A DNA stretch of 64,000 nucleotides from Limnobacter parvus (GTDB lineage Bacteria; Pseudomonadota; Gammaproteobacteria; Burkholderiales; Burkholderiaceae_B). Position numbers and translations under genes: made by a program. The stretch covers positions 473,265 to 537,264 of the forward strand of contig NZ_JANKHG010000017.1 in the NCBI RefSeq assembly GCF_024623725.1, given 5' to 3'. This document shows positions 14,468 through 53,311 of the stretch, piece by piece. Under the pieces are notes generated by a model. The model made no database searches and was not told where the DNA came from. It saw only the letters and a list, made by a program, of their open reading frames with translations. Position 1 is the first letter of the stretch. The number at the start of each line of letters is the position of its first letter.

Positions 14468-15191
14468 TGCCGATTTGGGCGAAGGTTGCGCGAACGACGA
14501 ATCATTGTTCGCACTTGTTGATTGGGCAAATATTGCCTGCGGTGGGCATGCTGGCGATGAAAGCAGCATTCGCAAAGCCTGTGAACTTGCACTTGAACAC
14601 GGCGTGCAAGTGGGGGCGCACCCCAGCTATCCAGACCGTGCAGGTTTTGGTCGCAACAAGCCTCAAATTGAACGTGTTCAATTGTTGGATGAACTGGAAC
14701 GGCAAATGGATTTATTTGAAAACATCGCTGCGCAATTTGGCTGCCGCACTGCGCATTTCAAGCCCCATGGCCAGTTGTACAATGACGCGGCTTTTTTGCA
14801 GGCCGAGGCGGATCTTGTCATTCATCTGGCGAAAGCTTATCCGCACTTGAAGTTGGTGGCCTTGGCCCAAAGCCCGTTGGTAGATTTGGCACGTGCGGCC
14901 GGTGTTGTTGTGGTTGAAGAAGCCTTTCCCGACCGGGTTTACCTGCCCAATGGGGCCTTGGCCCCACGAAGCGAAGCAGGTGCGCTGATAGAAGCACCAC
15001 AACAGGTGAAGGCTCAAGCGCTATCAATCATTCGAAAAGGCCCTTTGATCTGCTTGGGTGGTTCAAGCCGGGTGGTAATGGCGCAAACGCTTTGTGTTCA
15101 TGGCGACACCCCCCAAGCCCTTGCCAATGCGCAGGCTGTGCGTGAAGCGGTCACCGAACACGATCAAGACGCGTTCAGCGGCGCAGACTAA
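14427..15191 (+). CDS. pxpA: 5-oxoprolinase subunit PxpA (LamB/YcsF family)
   Basis: A 254-residue LamB/YcsF family protein with the DLGEGC start motif, ANIACGGHAGD, GAHPSYPDR and FKPHGQLYN. These surround the putative metal/active site of the catalytic subunit. The ATG at 14427 has AAGGCGG 7 nt upstream; the ATG at 14457 would give the N terminus most like E. coli PxpA and is the alternative. Last gene of pxpBCA, ending 10 nt from a convergent gene. Confidence 0.92.
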   Translation: MLSNQTIPKTMLINADLGEGCANDESLFALVDWANIACGGHAGDESSIRKACELALEHGVQVGAHPSYPDRAGFGRNKPQIERVQLLDELERQMDLFENIAAQFGCRTAHFKPHGQLYNDAAFLQAEADLVIHLAKAYPHLKLVALAQSPLVDLARAAGVVVVEEAFPDRVYLPNGALAPRSEAGALIEAPQQVKAQALSIIRKGPLICLGGSSRVVMAQTLCVHGDTPQALANAQAVREAVTEHDQDAFSGAD

Positions 15192-15201
15192 TTAAGCTCA
15201 T

Positions 15202-15642
15202 TTACTTGGGACCGATTTCCTTTATCGGCAGTCCAATGTGAGCAGGCATGCCCACGGTTGGCACAAAGCGAACGTCCAGTGCAGCCAATCCATGTTTCGC
15301 ACGGGCCTGGTTGCAACGTGGGTTCAGTTCGCCTTGCGCATCAAATACATCGTATTCACGGCAGGGCGATGGGCGGTTTTCATATACGGTACAGGTGACC
15401 GACTCTCCAATGTTGCCAGCAAGGGCAATACAGCGCGGTTTGCTTTGCGAAGTACCTTTCATGCAACTGCGGTAGAGGTTCATTTGCTCTGTCATCTCAA
15501 CAGGCACAGTGCCACCTTCTGCAGCCGTGGTTTCGCCCCAATAAAAGCTGATTCGAAAAGTCGAGCAGCAAACGCCGCAACTTTGGCAAAGGGCTTCAAC
15601 ACCTTGGCCATCAACAATGACAGTGGTTGGATTTGACTGCAA
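15202..15642 (-). CDS. YkgJ-type cysteine cluster protein
   Basis: A 146-residue protein of the YkgJ/UPF0153 zinc- or iron-chelating family. Cysteines are arranged as CQSCGVCC near residues 19-26 with further conserved Cys in RPSPCREYD and NPRCNQAR. It starts at a TTG with GAGG 5 nt upstream. Single gene, convergent with pxpA. The family role is poorly defined; metal binding is the only safe statement. Confidence 0.82.
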   Translation of the reverse strand: MQSNPTTVIVDGQGVEALCQSCGVCCSTFRISFYWGETTAAEGGTVPVEMTEQMNLYRSCMKGTSQSKPRCIALAGNIGESVTCTVYENRPSPCREYDVFDAQGELNPRCNQARAKHGLAALDVRFVPTVGMPAHIGLPIKEIGPK

Positions 15643-15822
15643 TTGAACCTCGGGAAAGAACAGCCATCAGGGGAGTTGCGCGAATATATTCCCAGCCCTG
15701 AGGCAAAGCAAGCACTATTTTCAAGACCCGTCGTTTCGAAGAAACAAGCTTTTTGTAAGGTCCTGAGGCTACAATAGGGAAAACCATTATAAAAACCATT
15801 TTGCCAAGCGAGTGGAGAGACT

Positions 15823-17784
15823 GTGAATCGACCGAATGCCGCGCCTGCGGCCGATTTGGGGGCTGGCGCCCCTGAAGCAAGCCAGGCGAACACCAGCCCG
15901 TCTGGGCAAATGCTGGACTACATCAAGCAGCGCCTTATCAAACATGCTCCCTTCAGTGAAATACCACTTCGCGACCTGGACTGTTTGCTAGAAGGGTGTG
16001 CCGAAACCTATTTTGCCCCCAATGAAGTTATTGTTCGGCCCGAAGATGGTCCCCCGCCTTTTTTGTATTATGTGGAAAAGGGCTCTACCGTTGGGCGAAA
16101 GGGCTTGGCTGATTTGTCTTCCACCGGGTTTCAGTACGAAGCTGGCGAAATGTTTCCCGTGAATGCCTTTTTGGCCAAGCGCGCAGTTACAGCCACCTAC
16201 AGCGCTCGGGAAGACACCTTTTGCCTGATGTTCACCTTTGATTCCGTGCAAGCTCTGGCCCGCAAAAGCCCGGTTTTTTCTGATTACCTGACGCGCCGCA
16301 CCATGCAGTTTTTGGACTTGTCCAGAAAAGCAATTCAAATGGCTTATTCGTCGCAAACACTGGCTGAACAAACGCTAGAGAAACCGCTGCGCGATGTGTG
16401 CCGTCACGAGCCCTTTTCGTGCTCAGCCAGCACCCCGTTGAAGCAGGTGTTGGAAGTGATGCACGAGCACCGAATTGGCTCGATGATTGTGGTGGATGAT
16501 CAAATGCATGTTGAAGGCATACTGACCCGTCAGGATGTGCTTTCGCGAATTGCCATGACCGAAAAGCCACTCAGTACCCTGATTTCAGAAGTGATGAATA
16601 CGCCCGTGCACACGCTGGATGAAAGCAGCACCGCGCAAGACGCCGCCCTTTTGATGTCGCGGTTTGGTATTCGCCATGTGCCGGTAACACGGAATGGGAA
16701 ACTCAGTGGAATTGTGTCTGAACGCGATATTTTCGCCATGCAGCGTTTGTCGCTTAAACAGATCAGCAGCAACATTCGTTCGGCACAAGACGCAGAAATG
16801 CTTAGGGCATGCGCCAATGATATTCGCAGCTTCGCAAAGAACTTGTTGGGTCAGGGCATTGCGGCCAAGCAGCTGACAGAGCTAATCAGCCATTTAAATG
16901 ATGTACTGACCGAACGAATTCTGGAGGTGGTGGGCAACCGAATGGGAATCAACGCCAGCAGCTATTGTTGGCTTAGTTTCGGGTCGGAAGGTCGATCAGA
17001 ACAAACCATTGCGACCGACCAGGACAATGGCTTGTTGTTCATCAGCGATCAGCCCGACGTGGACCGACCACGCTGGCTGGCCTTTGGCAAGGAAGTCAAC
17101 CAGACACTCGACCTGTGTGGCTATCCGCAGTGCAAGGGCAATATCATGGCCAGCAACCCAGAGTGCTGCATGACCGCGGCCGAATGGCTGAACAAATTTG
17201 CCAAGTGGATCGATGTAGCCACTCCGGAGAATCTGTTGCGTGTGAATATATTTTTTGACTTGCGCCCGCTGGCTGGCAACAAGGAATTGGCCCAACCTCT
17301 GCGGGACTACATTGTGACCCGAGCCAAGGAGTCGACAATTTTTCTGCGCTTGTTGGCTGAAAACATAATGCGGTTCCGCCCGCCCTTGAATTGGCACGGC
17401 AGCATTGATACCACTGAAATTGAAGACGTGCGTACGCTTGATTTGAAGAAGCATGGCACCGCCGTGTTTGTGGATGCAGCGCGGTTTTTCTCATTGGCGT
17501 TTGGTATTGATGAAGTAAACACCCGCCGCCGGTTTGAAGCTGTGGCCAAGCGTTTAAGTGTTGAAGCACAGCGACGCGACGCATGGGTCAGCGCTTTTGA
17601 ATTTTTACAGATGATGCGTTTGCGCATTCAGCTTGACGAAGGGGTGGCCGTGCCCAATCTGCCCGACCAACCGAACGTAGTGAATTATGATGTGCTGGAT
17701 AACATTGACCGTCGAATTCTGAAAGAATGTTTTCGAGTGGGACGGCGTTTGCAGCAGCGCATTGAGACGGAGCACATGCGTTGA
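15823..17784 (+). CDS. cNMP-binding / CBS / DUF294 nucleotidyltransferase-like regulator
   Basis: A 653-residue cytoplasmic signalling protein. Residues ~45-170 are a cyclic-nucleotide-binding-like domain, ~195-310 a CBS pair, ~345-480 a DUF294 nucleotidyltransferase-like domain (GSEGRSEQTIATDQDNGL carries the G-S and D-x-D features of GlnD-type enzymes) and ~500-645 a DUF294 C-terminal helical domain. The start is a GTG with GGAG just upstream. It overlaps the following exonuclease by 4 nt. It could read the cAMP made by the cyclase encoded 4 kb upstream, but nothing in the sequence proves this. Confidence 0.85.
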   Translation: MNRPNAAPAADLGAGAPEASQANTSPSGQMLDYIKQRLIKHAPFSEIPLRDLDCLLEGCAETYFAPNEVIVRPEDGPPPFLYYVEKGSTVGRKGLADLSSTGFQYEAGEMFPVNAFLAKRAVTATYSAREDTFCLMFTFDSVQALARKSPVFSDYLTRRTMQFLDLSRKAIQMAYSSQTLAEQTLEKPLRDVCRHEPFSCSASTPLKQVLEVMHEHRIGSMIVVDDQMHVEGILTRQDVLSRIAMTEKPLSTLISEVMNTPVHTLDESSTAQDAALLMSRFGIRHVPVTRNGKLSGIVSERDIFAMQRLSLKQISSNIRSAQDAEMLRACANDIRSFAKNLLGQGIAAKQLTELISHLNDVLTERILEVVGNRMGINASSYCWLSFGSEGRSEQTIATDQDNGLLFISDQPDVDRPRWLAFGKEVNQTLDLCGYPQCKGNIMASNPECCMTAAEWLNKFAKWIDVATPENLLRVNIFFDLRPLAGNKELAQPLRDYIVTRAKESTIFLRLLAENIMRFRPPLNWHGSIDTTEIEDVRTLDLKKHGTAVFVDAARFFSLAFGIDEVNTRRRFEAVAKRLSVEAQRRDAWVSAFEFLQMMRLRIQLDEGVAVPNLPDQPNVVNYDVLDNIDRRILKECFRVGRRLQQRIETEHMR

Positions 17785-49000: not shown

Positions 49001-50077
49001 ATGACACATTCAACCATTCGGGCCGCTGCACAGCCTGGCTTGAACAAGGCCCTTGTGGCTTTGTTCATGGCCATGGTGTTGGCAGTTTGCTCACTTTGGT
49101 CGGCGGGGGCCATGGCGCAAGATGCAACTGAACGCTCGCAAGCGCAAGTTCAGAAGCAACAAACGCAGCCCCTGAATAACGCACCGGTTTGGGAAGGTGT
49201 TGCGTCGGGTGAGTCTTTCACCACCGTAACAAAAGGCCGTGAAACCGGGGTGTTGATTAACAAAAGCGGTGAAACATGGCGCATGATCCGCAATGACTGG
49301 ATTTCTTACTATGGCGGCTGGGCCGTTGCGTTGGTTTTCCTGATTATTGTGGGTGCTCATTTGGTAAAAGGCCCTGTAAAATTGCCCGAGCCACGTACCG
49401 GCAGGCTGATTGAGCGTTTTACGTCTGCAGAACGTGTGGCCCACTGGACCATGGCATTCAGTTTTGTGGCGTTGGCAATCACCGGCTTGTTGTTGATGTT
49501 CGGCAAATATGTGTTGGCACCATGGATGGGGCTTACCCTCAATTCATGGCTGGCATCCATCAGCATTGTGATTCACAACTTCGTGGGTCCTTTGTTTGCA
49601 GTTAGCGTCATCGTGTTCTTCATCATGTATGTGAAAGACAACTTGCCCGAGAAGAATGACATCGAGTGGCTGAAGAAAGGTGGTGGTTTGTTCGGGCATG
49701 CGCCAGCGGGTCGCTTCAACATGGGCGAGAAAATCTGGTTCTGGGGCGGCGTTACGGTACTTGGCATTGTGGTGTCCGTAACAGGCTTGATCCTCGACTT
49801 CCCCAACTTTGACCAGGGTCGCGTGTTGATGCAGCAGTCGCATGTCATTCATGCAAGTGCAGCCATGTTGTTCATGATCATGTCCATGGGGCACATCTAC
49901 ATCGGCTCTGTTGGCATGGAAGGTGCCCTCGAAGCCATGCGTGATGGTTACGTGGATGAAACATGGGCTAAGGCGCATCACGACGCTTGGTACGAGGACA
50001 TCAAATCAGGCAAGATTTCGCCTGTGCGTTCGAAAGAGGGTGCTACTGCAATGGGTTCACAGGTAATGGCTCGCTAA
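49001..50077 (+). CDS. fdhC: Formate dehydrogenase cytochrome b (gamma) subunit
   Basis: A 358-residue membrane protein. A signal peptide (~1-40, cut near AMA-QD) and a ~65-residue periplasmic segment precede four membrane helices (~105, 145, 188 and 245, with a last span near 285). Heme-binding His candidates are in VAHWTMAF, VIHNF and SHVIHAS. It passes electrons from formate to the quinone pool. Longer at the N terminus than FdnI of E. coli. Its stop overlaps that of the convergent HDO gene by 4 nt. Confidence 0.92.
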   Translation: MTHSTIRAAAQPGLNKALVALFMAMVLAVCSLWSAGAMAQDATERSQAQVQKQQTQPLNNAPVWEGVASGESFTTVTKGRETGVLINKSGETWRMIRNDWISYYGGWAVALVFLIIVGAHLVKGPVKLPEPRTGRLIERFTSAERVAHWTMAFSFVALAITGLLLMFGKYVLAPWMGLTLNSWLASISIVIHNFVGPLFAVSVIVFFIMYVKDNLPEKNDIEWLKKGGGLFGHAPAGRFNMGEKIWFWGGVTVLGIVVSVTGLILDFPNFDQGRVLMQQSHVIHASAAMLFMIMSMGHIYIGSVGMEGALEAMRDGYVDETWAKAHHDAWYEDIKSGKISPVRSKEGATAMGSQVMAR

Positions 50078-50811
50078 GATGAGTTTTTAACCTTGTGTAT
50101 TCCCCAAGGAAGATTAAAAACCCGCTCAGCAATGAGCGGGTTTTTTTTAGACCGGCTCCGAATTGCGCTTAACACACTCACACCACTTTGTAGCGTGTGC
50201 AAACCGCTGACCCCAACAGCGACTTCCTCTCGAGTTTCCAGATTAAGCTGGTCTATTAAGTCCAGAATCTCTATTTTGTGCTTTAGGTCGAGCACCTCAT
50301 GGCGCGCTATGGCACTGAAGGCCTTGCTCGGAAAGCCAGTTAATTTGGCCAAACGTTTGGAAAATCCTGCGGGTGGATGATTTATCTCCAGAGCGGCAAT
50401 GTGCCCCATGATCATCACAGGATGGTGGTGAATAATCCAGTAATATTGAGCGCCAACCATGGAGGCCACTTGGCAAGATGGAATTTTGGAAATTAAATAC
50501 TCTTTCCTGCCACCCGTGGCTTCATAGTCATCCATTAACCACTGATCGTGGCCTTTTTCCTCTTCAATGTGTTTGTCCAGGTAATCCACCAAGGTTCTTC
50601 GAAAGGCGCAAGATTCCGACAATTTGCTGGCTGCCAAAGCGGCTGTTCTCATGAGGGAAACGCCGCTTCGCACCACCATGTGCATCTGCTCCAAATACAA
50701 GGGATAAATTTTCCTGACATTCGGAGAAGACCACAGTTTTTCAGCCGCTTCTTGCATGGCTGGTCGCAATAACTCCAGTTTTTCTTCAAGTCGAGTGGAT
50801 GTGGTGTTCAT
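50074..50811 (-). CDS. Heme-oxygenase-like diiron oxidase (HDO) family protein of a RiPP-like cluster
   Basis: A 245-residue all-helical protein. The metal-ligand pattern of HDO/TENA-like diiron enzymes is visible: E41 (YLEQMHM), a cluster around H81, E84, E85 and H88 (HIEEEKGHDQW), E142, and H171-D175-H178 (HEVLDLKH). Known relatives carry out O2-dependent cleavage or N-oxygenation. The start at 50811 is set by GGGAG 6 nt upstream and lies 26 nt inside the radical SAM gene. Last gene of the cluster; the fdh operon terminator lies in its 3' end. It probably acts on the same peptide as the two radical SAM enzymes; that is inference. Confidence 0.75.
   Translation of the reverse strand: MNTTSTRLEEKLELLRPAMQEAAEKLWSSPNVRKIYPLYLEQMHMVVRSGVSLMRTAALAASKLSESCAFRRTLVDYLDKHIEEEKGHDQWLMDDYEATGGRKEYLISKIPSCQVASMVGAQYYWIIHHHPVMIMGHIAALEINHPPAGFSKRLAKLTGFPSKAFSAIARHEVLDLKHKIEILDLIDQLNLETREEVAVGVSGLHTLQSGVSVLSAIRSRSKKNPLIAERVFNLPWGIHKVKNSS
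50116..50148 (+). terminator. Rho-independent terminator of the formate dehydrogenase operon
   Basis: A perfect CCCGCTCA/TGAGCGGG stem with a GCAA tetraloop is preceded by five A's and followed by eight T's. It lies inside the 3' coding end of the convergent HDO gene, so both functions share the DNA. Confidence 0.93.
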
Positions 50812-51775
50812 CGGCTTCTCCCAGTTCGGCGATTGCATGGATTAATCGATCAGTTGGAGGCAAGGCTGGAAATTTTTTCATGATCTCCCAGCACAATTGG
50901 CAGGTACTTACGTACTTTTGTTTATTCAGCGAGTCCAGTCGAGGGTGTATCAGCAATTGCCCAAGACCCACCCCGGCAACACAGCGCATCAATGGATCAT
51001 GTTTGTAGCGAACCAGTATTTCATCCAGATCATCACTGCTTCTTGCTTTTGAACGAAACCTTTGGGGACCATGTCCCATGATGATTTCTTCGTTGCAGCA
51101 GGAAGTGACGATGCCGTCATACCTAACCACCGGTGTAATGGCCAGGGCGCAACTACCAACTGAAGCGGCCGGAGTGGCTGGCCTGAAGTTGAAAATCTGT
51201 TTGCCTCGACCATTTTGAAGTGGAACGATAGGAACAATCTCGGCAAAACTGGTGAAATCTGTCTTGAATGCCTTGTGCAGGATATCCGACGCCTGTTTAA
51301 CATCCAAAGTTTGAACAACAATATGTGCCCCTGCGTCCGCGATCTGGCACGCAGCGTGAGTGAAATGTTGTACCGGAACCCCAGCTTGATGGAATGAATC
51401 AGTACTCAAATAAATGGTGCTGCACTTTTTCAGCACATCGGTAATCCAGCCTGGGGGTTTTGAAGCCTTAGCCCACACCCCACTTGTATAAATCACAATC
51501 GATTTGCCACATTCATTGAATTTCGAACACGCTAATGTCAACCCCCGTCGCTCTGCAAATGGCTCCCCGCCAGAGATCCCGACCACCTCAATTTTTTCTT
51601 GTTGGCATATTCCAGTTAAAAGCGCATCGAATAAATCGTAATCGGAGATGACCGGACCATCTGACCGCGAATCCACCGAGCAGTGGGCGCAATTCACCGG
51701 GCAACGGTCTGTGATGAACAGCAACAGCGAGGAACCTGGCATGCGTCGAATACGCTCAATGTCATCATGATTCAT
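50786..51775 (-). CDS. Radical SAM enzyme 2 of the RiPP-like cluster
   Basis: A 329-residue radical SAM protein with the canonical C25-x3-C29-x2-C32 (CPVNCAHC) and ISGGEPF motif. A C-terminal SPASM/twitch-like set of Cys (C209, C226, C227, C265, C292, C295) suggests auxiliary Fe-S clusters. It shares with radical SAM 1 the motifs CP-x2-CAHCS, SGGE, a D-x-FH box (STDSFHQ) and PVVRYDGIV-x2-C, so the two look like ancient duplicates. ATGA overlap with radical SAM 1. Predicted to modify the peptide encoded first in the cluster. Confidence 0.85.
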   Translation of the reverse strand: MNHDDIERIRRMPGSSLLLFITDRCPVNCAHCSVDSRSDGPVISDYDLFDALLTGICQQEKIEVVGISGGEPFAERRGLTLACSKFNECGKSIVIYTSGVWAKASKPPGWITDVLKKCSTIYLSTDSFHQAGVPVQHFTHAACQIADAGAHIVVQTLDVKQASDILHKAFKTDFTSFAEIVPIVPLQNGRGKQIFNFRPATPAASVGSCALAITPVVRYDGIVTSCCNEEIIMGHGPQRFRSKARSSDDLDEILVRYKHDPLMRCVAGVGLGQLLIHPRLDSLNKQKYVSTCQLCWEIMKKFPALPPTDRLIHAIAELGEADEHHIHST

Positions 51776-52890
51776 TGGCGAGAACCCAACAAAACCAGTT
51801 CAGCGAATCGCGGGTGACTGTATCGCTTTGCAAATTGAACAGCACCCATTTCGACTTGCATTTGAGTGACGGAATCGCTCAATACTTTCGATCCTGGTTT
51901 TCTCATGTGGGTCGACACGAGATTTTGCAGCGCGATTTTTGTTTCCAGACTAATGCACGAGTTGCAATAACCCACGCATGCGGACCCGGCTTTGCCAAAG
52001 CTACTCTGCAAGTATTCCGGTCCGTATGTTCTCAAAGCAGAGGGCATTGTTCCGCCGATGCACCTTGCCTGAATTTCCGGCCAAGTGTCGGTTCGAATGT
52101 CACCGAGCCGAAGATGCGATGGCACACATCCAATTAAATCATCGTTTCCACAGACCGCCACCACACCATCAAAACCGACCACAGGCCAGGCGGCCATGGT
52201 GCACGGATTAGCCCTGGGTTTATCAAGTTTCGAAACCACCCTGATCACAAAGGCTTTTGCACGTCCAAACGGAGAAAGCGTGTTGACCAGCATCGGAATT
52301 CGATCGCCGAAGTGTTTTTGAACGTCATGAACCAAATCATCCAGATAAGGGTCATCATTGCTTCGACCAGCAATGTGCATGCTCATCGATATGCCGTCAT
52401 CCAGCAGACGGCCAATGACCTTGAAGACATTGGATCGTGAAACTTCTCTTTCGTGAAATTCATCCATGCTGACCGAAAAATGATCGACTGCATCGATTGC
52501 CGCCTTTACCGATCTGGAAATGCTGGTTTTTCGAGCGAAAAACATGCCGGATAGTACGCTTGATTTGGTGCCTGATTCCCTTGCCTTGACTGCAAGCTTT
52601 CTAACCAGTTGAGGGCGCAGTAGAGCTTCGCCGCCCGACATGGCCATGAATTTTGGATGCGATTTGACGGAAAAGGTGTCCACGAACCGGGTGTAAAGTT
52701 CGGCTGGACTCTCTTCGCTGTCCATTGACGAATTGGTTGAGCAATGCGCGCAGCTTAAAGGGCATTTTCTGGTGATTCCGATCGATATTCCTGCTGCCGG
52801 TACCGCTCGATTTGCAAGCATTTCAGCTAGATGCATGGTGGTTGACGTCCATGAAACAAAGCAATCAATGGGGGGCATTGATGCAGTCAT
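51772..52890 (-). CDS. Radical SAM enzyme 1 of the RiPP-like cluster
   Basis: A 372-residue radical SAM protein. The 4Fe-4S cysteines are C43, C47 and C50 (CPLSCAHC), with MSGGEAL following. C-terminal Cys at 230, 247, 255, 277, 305, 309 and 312 (ending CVGYCNSC) resemble a SPASM domain, typical of peptide-modifying radical SAM enzymes. The D-x-FH box (SMDEFHE) is shared with radical SAM 2. The ATG at 52890 (GAGGG upstream) is used; an ATG four codons later is the alternative. It is 41 nt after the precursor gene. Confidence 0.85.
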   Translation of the reverse strand: MTASMPPIDCFVSWTSTTMHLAEMLANRAVPAAGISIGITRKCPLSCAHCSTNSSMDSEESPAELYTRFVDTFSVKSHPKFMAMSGGEALLRPQLVRKLAVKARESGTKSSVLSGMFFARKTSISRSVKAAIDAVDHFSVSMDEFHEREVSRSNVFKVIGRLLDDGISMSMHIAGRSNDDPYLDDLVHDVQKHFGDRIPMLVNTLSPFGRAKAFVIRVVSKLDKPRANPCTMAAWPVVGFDGVVAVCGNDDLIGCVPSHLRLGDIRTDTWPEIQARCIGGTMPSALRTYGPEYLQSSFGKAGSACVGYCNSCISLETKIALQNLVSTHMRKPGSKVLSDSVTQMQVEMGAVQFAKRYSHPRFAELVLLGSRQ

Positions 52891-52931
52891 GCAGACAATG
52901 CCCTCAAGTTACTGCAGTTGCTGCTGGAGTT

Positions 52932-53156
52932 TTACCAGACGAAGCCGCCCACTGTGTCGGCAGCTCGCTTGATTTTTTCATCCAGACCAGAATTCAACTT
53001 CAACTTGATACTGCTGAGCACAGCGAGTTCATCGTCGTCCAGCAATGCAACCTGCGCTTTCAAATTGTCACTGAGCGCATCCATTTGAAATACAACTCCC
53101 GAGGACCGAATACGCACGGCCCTGGCTGAAGACATACTTGCTTTTTCATCTGACAT
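52932..53156 (-). CDS. Candidate RiPP precursor peptide
   Basis: A 74-residue peptide with a charged, helix-prone leader (~1-60, including LLDDDELAVLSSIKLKL) and a short tail AADTVGGFVW at the very end. The AAGGAGGT ribosome site 5 nt before the ATG is the strongest in the cluster, as expected of a highly expressed precursor. It contains no Cys, so it cannot be a classical thioether sactipeptide. The ELAVLSSIK-like leader and aromatic tail recall the so-called aroma-sacti precursors, from memory and unverified. First gene of the cluster, followed by two radical SAM genes and an HDO gene. A longer upstream reading to 53279 lacks a ribosome site. Confidence 0.75.
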   Translation of the reverse strand: MSDEKASMSSARAVRIRSSGVVFQMDALSDNLKAQVALLDDDELAVLSSIKLKLNSGLDEKIKRAADTVGGFVW

Positions 53157-53238
53157 AACAACCTCCTTTTTAGGTGGTTGACCGGCAGATCCTGAACTCA
53201 ATCTGACGATCAATGCATTGGAGATCAATGCCAAACAA

Positions 53239-53267
53239 CTTTTACGCCTGCGCTTTTTCGGGGTCAA
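53239..53267 (-). promoter_or_regulatory. Candidate sigma70 promoter of the RiPP-like cluster
   Basis: On the minus strand TTGACC (53267-53262) and TAAAAG (53244-53239) are separated by 17 nt. Transcription would start near 53232, giving a ~75-nt leader before the precursor ATG at 53156. The -10 box is a 4/6 match, so this is moderate support. Confidence 0.5.
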
Positions 53268-53311
53268 AAACAAACTCAATTCTGATTTAAGCGCATGTTC
53301 TTGAAAGCAAA

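Follow-up and report, generated by a model that had tools for sequence, protein, structure and literature searches.

A Limnobacter parvus gene cassette joining an aroma-sacti precursor peptide to a heme-oxygenase-like diiron protein and two EpeE-like radical SAM enzymes: a putative RiPP system with relatives in Streptomyces

Background

Ribosomally synthesized and post-translationally modified peptides (RiPPs) made with radical S-adenosylmethionine (SAM) enzymes are a known kind of system, and the precursor domain that concerns us here is already catalogued, as NCBIfam NF045560, "aroma-sacti cluster domain-containing protein". Heme-oxygenase-like diiron proteins (HDOs) form an enzyme family that is growing fast and of which about a dozen members have been tested; they are recognized by a rule of three histidine and three carboxylate ligands (3H/3C), according to the sections available of PMC13108848. 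The sole HDO case on a ribosomal peptide that we found in print is VarO of the thiovarsolin pathway, for which the portion available of PMC6511847 proposes a double bond placed in an arginine side chain. Here we describe a four-gene cassette in a 64,000-nucleotide stretch of the Limnobacter parvus contig NZ_JANKHG010000017.1 (the whole stretch is called the window, and positions count from its first letter), in which an HDO stands with a small peptide and two radical SAM enzymes, rSAM-A and rSAM-B (A and B below). We read it as a RiPP cassette in which radical SAM chemistry of the EpeE type would alter the hydrophobic C-terminus of the peptide and the HDO would oxidize the last residue, a reading to which we give a probability of about 0.5. 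Among its relatives in other phyla the HDO is the constant candidate maturase.

Among solved structures EpeE (YydG) comes nearest to A and B in sequence and, for B, in fold too; its Cys223 is the proposed hydrogen donor (PMC8326336, available in part) and has an equivalent in B. The cassette differs from EpeE systems in having two paralogues and an HDO, and its enzymes score only 49.0 (A) and 45.6 bits (B) against the cut-off of 300 for the EpeE/YydG family TIGR04078. The precursor of EpeE is not known to be related to the cassette peptide. StsA-related sactipeptides (NF045559) are brought to mind by one precursor of a Streptomyces scabichelini relative, which matches that model over its leader at 28.7 bits; the window peptide reaches 12.9 bits, both lie far below the cut-off of 75, and the window cassette differs further in a peptide with no CxC motif or any other cysteine and in the absence of a PqqD-type recognition protein among its four genes. 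With UndA, CtCADD, VarO and AetD the cassette HDO shares its fold and ligands compatible with 3H/3C, and VarO likewise belongs to a RiPP pathway (PMC6511847, in part); what sets the cassette HDO apart from these is that it comes with EpeE-like enzymes and a peptide bearing an aroma-sacti leader, and its nearest structure by sequence, 3dde, is of unknown function. The FxSxx-COOH systems with AP-ATPase-TPR (tetratricopeptide repeat) proteins also combine a radical SAM enzyme, a small peptide and an NTPase-TPR partner, and they differ in peptide motif and in maturation set; in the passages available of PMC7159879 the present gene set is not described, and the words "heme oxygenase" do not occur in its main text. 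A reading akin to pyrroloquinoline quinone (PQQ) synthesis was set aside, A scoring 26.1 and B 16.7 bits on the PqqE model TIGR02109 (cut-off 381.35).

An original prediction, made from the letters of the window alone, could match the combination of these families to no characterized pathway, and in the open-access literature, which omits most subscription papers, we found none with the same families; nor did we find there the combination with an HDO, the apparent HDO-only form or the tail rule described below, or anything on function under the name of the aroma-sacti domain.

Results

The cassette in Limnobacter

The cassette runs from 53156 to 50074 on the minus strand as a tightly spaced unit of peptide, A, B and HDO genes, all four of which had been predicted. 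The precursor gene (52932..53156), immediately preceded by AAGGAGGT, encodes 74 residues without a cysteine; the product passes the curated cut-off of NF045560 (35.5 bits against 30) and no cut-off in Pfam, and carries the aroma-sacti domain in its leader, at residues 15-59. An encoded precursor with a conserved leader and a C-terminal core, lying beside modifying enzymes, places the locus among the putative RiPP systems. A and B (50786..51775) both match Pfam Radical_SAM, and the HDO (50074..50811) matches Haem_oxygenas_2 (PF14518), as expected. The open reading frame of A spans 52890-51772, and conservation in relatives puts its start at M19 (position 52836, giving a feature of 51772..52836), so that the gap between peptide and A is probably 95 nt rather than the 41 nt first supposed; the overlaps of 4 nt between A and B and 26 nt between B and HDO stand as predicted. 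A further correction concerns the label "SPASM/twitch-like": the Pfam SPASM model matches neither enzyme, and both resemble EpeE. The flanks are those originally named: on one side rne with a terminator-like hairpin at about 53345-53320, and on the other an fdh gene (cytochrome-b-like, named by eye) that converges on the HDO gene.

A search for rSAM-B found it in 4 of 268 genomes of the family, all of them in Limnobacter (16 genomes of the genus listed), and each of the four carries the full cassette. In one relative (G156) the cassette sits between rne and fdh as it does in the window, and in a second (G153) likewise, judging from the pattern of open reading frames; in a third (G154) it lies at a different site, beside a CHASE3/HisKA_3 kinase gene and a rho-like gene (read by eye). 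In the cassette-less relatives G155 and G143 rne and fdh nearly adjoin, at a distance of only about 150-250 bp, so the cassette was acquired or lost whole. Identity to the three Limnobacter relatives is 77-81% for the peptide and 53-70% for the enzymes, which argues against a chance arrangement. In G156 a lipase-like gene (L007, 5693-6745) stands between fdh and the cassette, where the window has no room for one.

The peptide and the HDO as a constant pair

A first contig scan with the single rSAM-B sequence brought up no relatives. A scan with an alignment of rSAM-A led to S. scabichelini (L016), which has A, B and HDO (39-43% identity), a gene for a major facilitator superfamily (MFS) transporter and a row of four aroma-sacti peptides. 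No rSAM-A relative was found on viral contigs, and the sole match on plasmids was a distant Halocatena radical SAM protein (23.5% identity). A profile of the HDO matched in 7 of 396 Actinomycetota genomes and 33 of 194 Streptomyces genomes; among 350 genomes of the window's own class it exceeded 81 bits solely in the genome of the window. The NF045560 model, run on 386 genomes drawn from the phylum Actinomycetota, was positive at E <= 0.001 in six, four of them over the family cut-off. All six are among the seven HDO-positive genomes, and in the remaining one (G962) the peptide gene is damaged; the co-occurrence that had been proposed as a check is thus borne out by separate searches for peptide and HDO. 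In the phylum of the window NF045560 matched in 4 of 398 genomes, over the cut-off in two, the window's own and G598, where an HDO gene adjoins the peptide gene. As controls, and not as members, we took 24 other HDO-type loci of the window's class, scoring 59-81 bits, and none carries a peptide of this kind within about 1.5 kb. Weak NF045560 matches in G295 and G509, which lie within long frames of 404 and 313 aa, were disregarded.

The 44 HDO loci so assembled comprise ten with A, B and HDO, 27 with A and HDO, and seven in which no radical SAM gene lies within 4 kb. The last group includes L077, in which A is cut by the contig end (32 bits), so that it is counted as lacking a radical SAM enzyme and is probably an A+HDO locus, and L034, with a damaged peptide gene. 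An intact peptide gene lies near the HDO gene in 42 of the 44; the exceptions are L034 and L098, where none is seen in 19 kb. The original prediction had staked itself on homologous loci keeping the small gene and on conservation of the peptide tail. Both are found, the last ten residues (AADTVGGFVW) being invariant across the four Limnobacter loci and classes of tail recurring across the loci outside the genus.

Every architecture shares the HDO and no other enzyme. There is apparently a form of the system with HDO alone, HDO and peptide being the constant pair, and since no other modifying enzyme occurs throughout, the HDO is likely the core maturase. The Streptomyces peptides score 64.6-75.1 bits on NF045560. 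One HDO-only peptide (L030) recalls the NHLP/Os17 leaders, matching NF038399 (Os1348-family NHLP clan) at 28.2 bits, under the cut-off of 40.

Several loci deserve separate mention. L099 presents two neighboring cassettes on opposite strands of one Streptomyces genome, one of the A+B+HDO type (tail SGAFVW) and one of the A+HDO type (tail GGVLF, with the MFS transporter). Near the peptide-less L098 cassette (14623-17283) are two radical SAM proteins, one B12-binding and one of the SPASM type. L068, which was left out of the counts with no HDO in view, holds a further aroma-sacti peptide (146-319, genome G846) with the tail ITAQMV, near a contig end that cuts off its surroundings.

Peptide tails and enzyme architecture

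Among the peptides there are 17 distinct nine-residue tails, and all 17 end in Trp, Phe or Val. The last residue tracks the architecture. Where A, B and HDO occur together there are eleven peptides ending in Trp and one more, in L016, ending in Phe, and each of the nine B-containing loci that have a peptide includes a Trp-ending one; in A+HDO loci, which have no B, the peptides end in Phe in 27 of 27; and in loci without a radical SAM enzyme the ending is Val (4) or Phe (2, these being G598 and the contig-cut L077). L034, identical to L030 where the two align, was left out of the tail counts and of the HDO tree, and L098 was left out of the tail counts. On that tree B and Trp each change four times, yielding two independent pairs on well-supported branches and four on all branches, which makes the link between B and Trp suggestive. 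Tails that differ predictably among natural loci with A, B and HDO, with A and HDO, and with HDO only make it possible to read the roles of the enzymes by comparing those loci.

The tails also dispose of a literal sactipeptide reading, for which a thioether-forming cysteine in the core is needed. The last 55 residues of 45 peptides contain not one cysteine, so that NF045560 lends a domain name only and its "sacti" is not to be taken at its word.

The enzymes

The AlphaFold2 model of the HDO (mean pLDDT 85.7) finds 3dde, CtCADD and, among others, UndA as its closest matches in Foldseek, which together with the PF14518 match assigns it the heme-oxygenase fold. By sequence only 3dde is significant among solved structures (6.7e-9; the next is at 0.55). 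The likely metal ligands are E85, H88, E142, H171, D175 and H178, the binding Glu and His having been chosen by analogy with the spacing in UndA, and with these the window HDO has the three histidines and three carboxylates of 3H/3C. All six are present in 42 of 44 aligned HDOs (E85, E142 and H171 in 44; H88, D175 and H178 in 43 each).

EpeE/YydG comes first for both A and B in NCBIfam and among PDB structures, with 8ai6 the best solved relative of A (6.8e-9) and EpeE likewise that of B (1.5e-12). With the AlphaFold2 model of B (mean pLDDT 73.1) as the query, EpeE takes ranks 1-9, and the next structure trails it by four orders of magnitude. In A the CxxxCxxC motif and C230, C247, C305, C309 and C312 (numbered from 52890) are invariant in five sequences. 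B has the cysteines of an EpeE-like enzyme, with C25, C29 and C32 forming CxxxCxxC and C226-C227 aligning with Cys222-Cys223 of EpeE (numbering fixed by the D210A entry 8ai6), and C227 is kept in ten of ten B proteins. The matching site in A, where the correspondence is drawn from the resemblance between A and B because the alignment of A with EpeE ends before Cys223, reads Cys-Cys in all 27 A+HDO loci and in L016, L098, L100 and L101. Where it departs from this, B is also present: the four Limnobacter loci and L099a show Cys-Gly, and L104 shows Cys-Ser. With the Cys pair kept in B and Cys-Gly in the A of Limnobacter, B is the better candidate for an epimerase; with Gly, or Ser in L104, where B has C227, A need not be one, and comparison of these residues suggests that the Limnobacter A may do something other than epimerization.

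Discussion

Proposed maturation

In the maturation that we propose, the leader domain of the precursor would be recognized by the enzymes, and the hydrophobic core, VGGFVW in the window, would be worked on at the C-terminus. B, and perhaps A too, would abstract a C-alpha hydrogen from the core as EpeE does, and B, with its equivalent of Cys223, would most likely epimerize a core residue. The diiron site of the HDO and O2 would act on the C-terminal residue, Trp here and Phe or Val elsewhere. All three of these residues have a weak C-beta hydrogen (benzylic in Trp and Phe, tertiary in Val) and the C-terminus a free carboxylate, which together suggest a decarboxylation like that of UndA: the carboxylate would be held at the diiron site, the C-beta hydrogen taken and CO2 lost, leaving a C-terminal enamide. 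If this is true, the cassette offers an O2-dependent route to C-terminal enamides. The product would probably talk to a neighboring cyclase-NTPase protein in most relatives, Limnobacter presenting the maturation genes without that neighbor.

A wider proposal, which we put forward tentatively and would not press, is that these loci make up a RiPP family defined by a dedicated HDO and a leader of aroma-sacti or NHLP type, in which the HDO oxidatively decarboxylates a C-terminal Trp, Phe or Val to the enamide. Epimerases of the EpeE type would take part in some members only, and a cyclase-NTPase-TPR protein would be under the control of the product; HDO and peptide pairs with no radical SAM gene beside them would be the core form of the family and the Limnobacter cassette a stand-alone form with A, B and HDO.

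A number of findings weigh against oxidation of the last residue by the HDO and EpeE-type chemistry in the core. The A+B+HDO locus L098 has no detectable peptide. Apart from L077 and L034 there are five HDO-only loci, all but that of G598 on short contigs; those of Actinomycetota were seen on contigs of 3.6-13 kb, so that radical SAM genes may exist elsewhere in the same genomes, and for G598 the whole genome was searched with the B profile, with no match. Gly stands at the C227 site in the A of Limnobacter and of L099a, and Ser in that of L104. As for recognition of the leader, Pfam gives no PqqD match for any of the four proteins of the cassette. The link between B and Trp amounts to four changes in each trait on the HDO tree, and the pair test is too small to reach significance. 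The HDO of L035 (1745-2443) lacks H88 and that of L104 (8183-8803) has Pro and Arg at D175 and H178; these two proteins may be inactive or differently built, or our account of the ligands may be incomplete. The reaction proposed for VarO is a side-chain desaturation, not a decarboxylation (PMC6511847, in part), and the hydrophobic C-terminus could be a signal for recognition or export rather than the substrate of the HDO. The residue touched by each enzyme, and the product itself, are predictions from sequence.

Alternatives

The precedent of VarO opens the alternative that survives best, which is possible though we would not expect it to prevail: the HDO would desaturate or hydroxylate a side chain within the core, the C-terminal carboxylate would be kept, and the restriction to Trp, Phe and Val would reflect recognition only. 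A varO mutant made only two of four thiovarsolin compounds (PMC6511847, in part), and HDOs catalyze many reactions on amino acids (PMC13108848, in part). The pattern of the tails points the other way, in that the residues upstream vary widely with architecture while the last is limited to three amino acids, each with a weak C-beta hydrogen.

It is unlikely, in our judgment, that the radical SAM enzymes instead cross-link the ring of Trp or Phe or another core residue (by a C-C or other bond) in place of forming D-residues, with the HDO finishing the product. Such a role would fit the company kept by B with Trp and by A and HDO with Phe, the glycine at the Cys223-like site in the Limnobacter A, and the appearance of SuiB, the streptide cross-linking enzyme, after EpeE in the fold search with B (7e-6). 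EpeE is nonetheless ahead in that search by four orders of magnitude, the catalytic cysteine is present in all ten B proteins, and the core is very short, with the aromatic residue last.

We think it doubtful that the peptide is a scaffold from which the C-terminal Trp, Phe or Val is released as a small molecule, as PQQ is, or in the manner of AetD and SktA, which work on free Trp derivatives. Those two HDOs do act on bromotryptophans (PMC13108848, in part), and the Limnobacter cassette has neither exporter nor peptidase. Against release stand the absence from the cassette of a ligase or further small-molecule enzymes, the conservation of the upstream core as well (ADTVGGFVW is invariant in Limnobacter), and the neighbors seen in Streptomyces, a cyclase-NTPase, a subtilase and, at some loci, an MFS transporter; the cofactor-like product once suggested has gained no positive support. 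That the locus is no RiPP system, being four unrelated genes or a chance reading frame beside redox enzymes, is scarcely credible; nothing was found in its favor, and it is contradicted by a peptide family conserved across phyla next to the HDO and by their co-occurrence.

Neighboring genes and a possible partner

A relative of the cyclase-NTPase proteins lies nearby in 38 of the 39 regions outside Limnobacter, namely in all 17 long regions (L016, L017, L029-L035 and L098-L105, four of them the loci that supplied the queries) and in 21 of 22 short Streptomyces regions, the exception (L081) being cut by a contig end. In the long regions this neighbor is related to a class III cyclase-NTPase protein. 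Of five such proteins run against Pfam, four have the cyclase domain, AAA_16 and TPRs, and the fifth (L104) shows only matches below the cut-offs, with no TPRs among them. In NCBIfam the Streptomyces protein from L032 best matches the TOMM kinase/cyclase model TIGR03903, at 148.1 bits; the cut-off is 705.75, and the first 270 model positions are unmatched. The genome of the window and G154 yield only cyclase-domain matches to the L032 protein, plus one 30-bit match in G154, and the window's genome showed no TOMM kinase/cyclase system. A subtilase and a GAF protein accompany ten of the 11 long Streptomyces regions, and an MFS transporter gene adjoins the cassette in L016 and L099. The predicted absence of a transporter or peptidase therefore holds for the Limnobacter cassette and fails for these Streptomyces regions.

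The peptide may serve a signaling or conflict system in most hosts, and the recurrence of the cyclase-NTPase neighbor outside Limnobacter suggests for it a biological role that can be tested in Streptomyces. Among the Streptomyces neighbors PADLOC recognizes its Pycsar cyclase at 59 bits and, at 70 bits, a subtilase model, so that a role in conflict may apply there. For the window genes a viperin or defense reading was rejected, the PADLOC matches of the radical SAM enzymes being weak, superfamily-level ones (19-26 bits) and those of the peptide and HDO nil. L100 (11730-12905) and L101 (5787-6962) each have a neighboring protein of 391 aa, the two alike at the start; that of L100 has near its C-terminus a weak PqqD-like match (RiPP recognition element, RRE), below the Pfam cut-off.

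Gene ends and upstream signals

A run of eight A and a hairpin (50116..50148) form a terminator-like element, apparently bidirectional, common to the 3' ends of the HDO gene and the convergent fdh gene. The HDO gene crosses the hairpin with its 3' end (50074-50148), and after the A8 run its frame is one base off that of its relatives, so that the last residues of the HDO are uncertain. The HDOs of L007 and L008 stop within the hairpin after A8, and that of the window continues into an overlap with the fdh gene; the shift is either a homopolymer error or a genuine change of frame. Scans of the window with Rfam models and for tRNA genes gave no matches. Upstream of the peptide gene, on the minus strand, a -35-like box, TTTTTGAC (53263..53270), is identical in the four Limnobacter loci. 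Between it and the gene lies a spaced palindrome, GCATTG-N5-CAATGC (53215..53231, minus strand), both arms of which are invariant in the same four loci; it occurs as a single exact copy in the window and, to judge from its form and position, may be an operator or a hairpin of the 5' leader.

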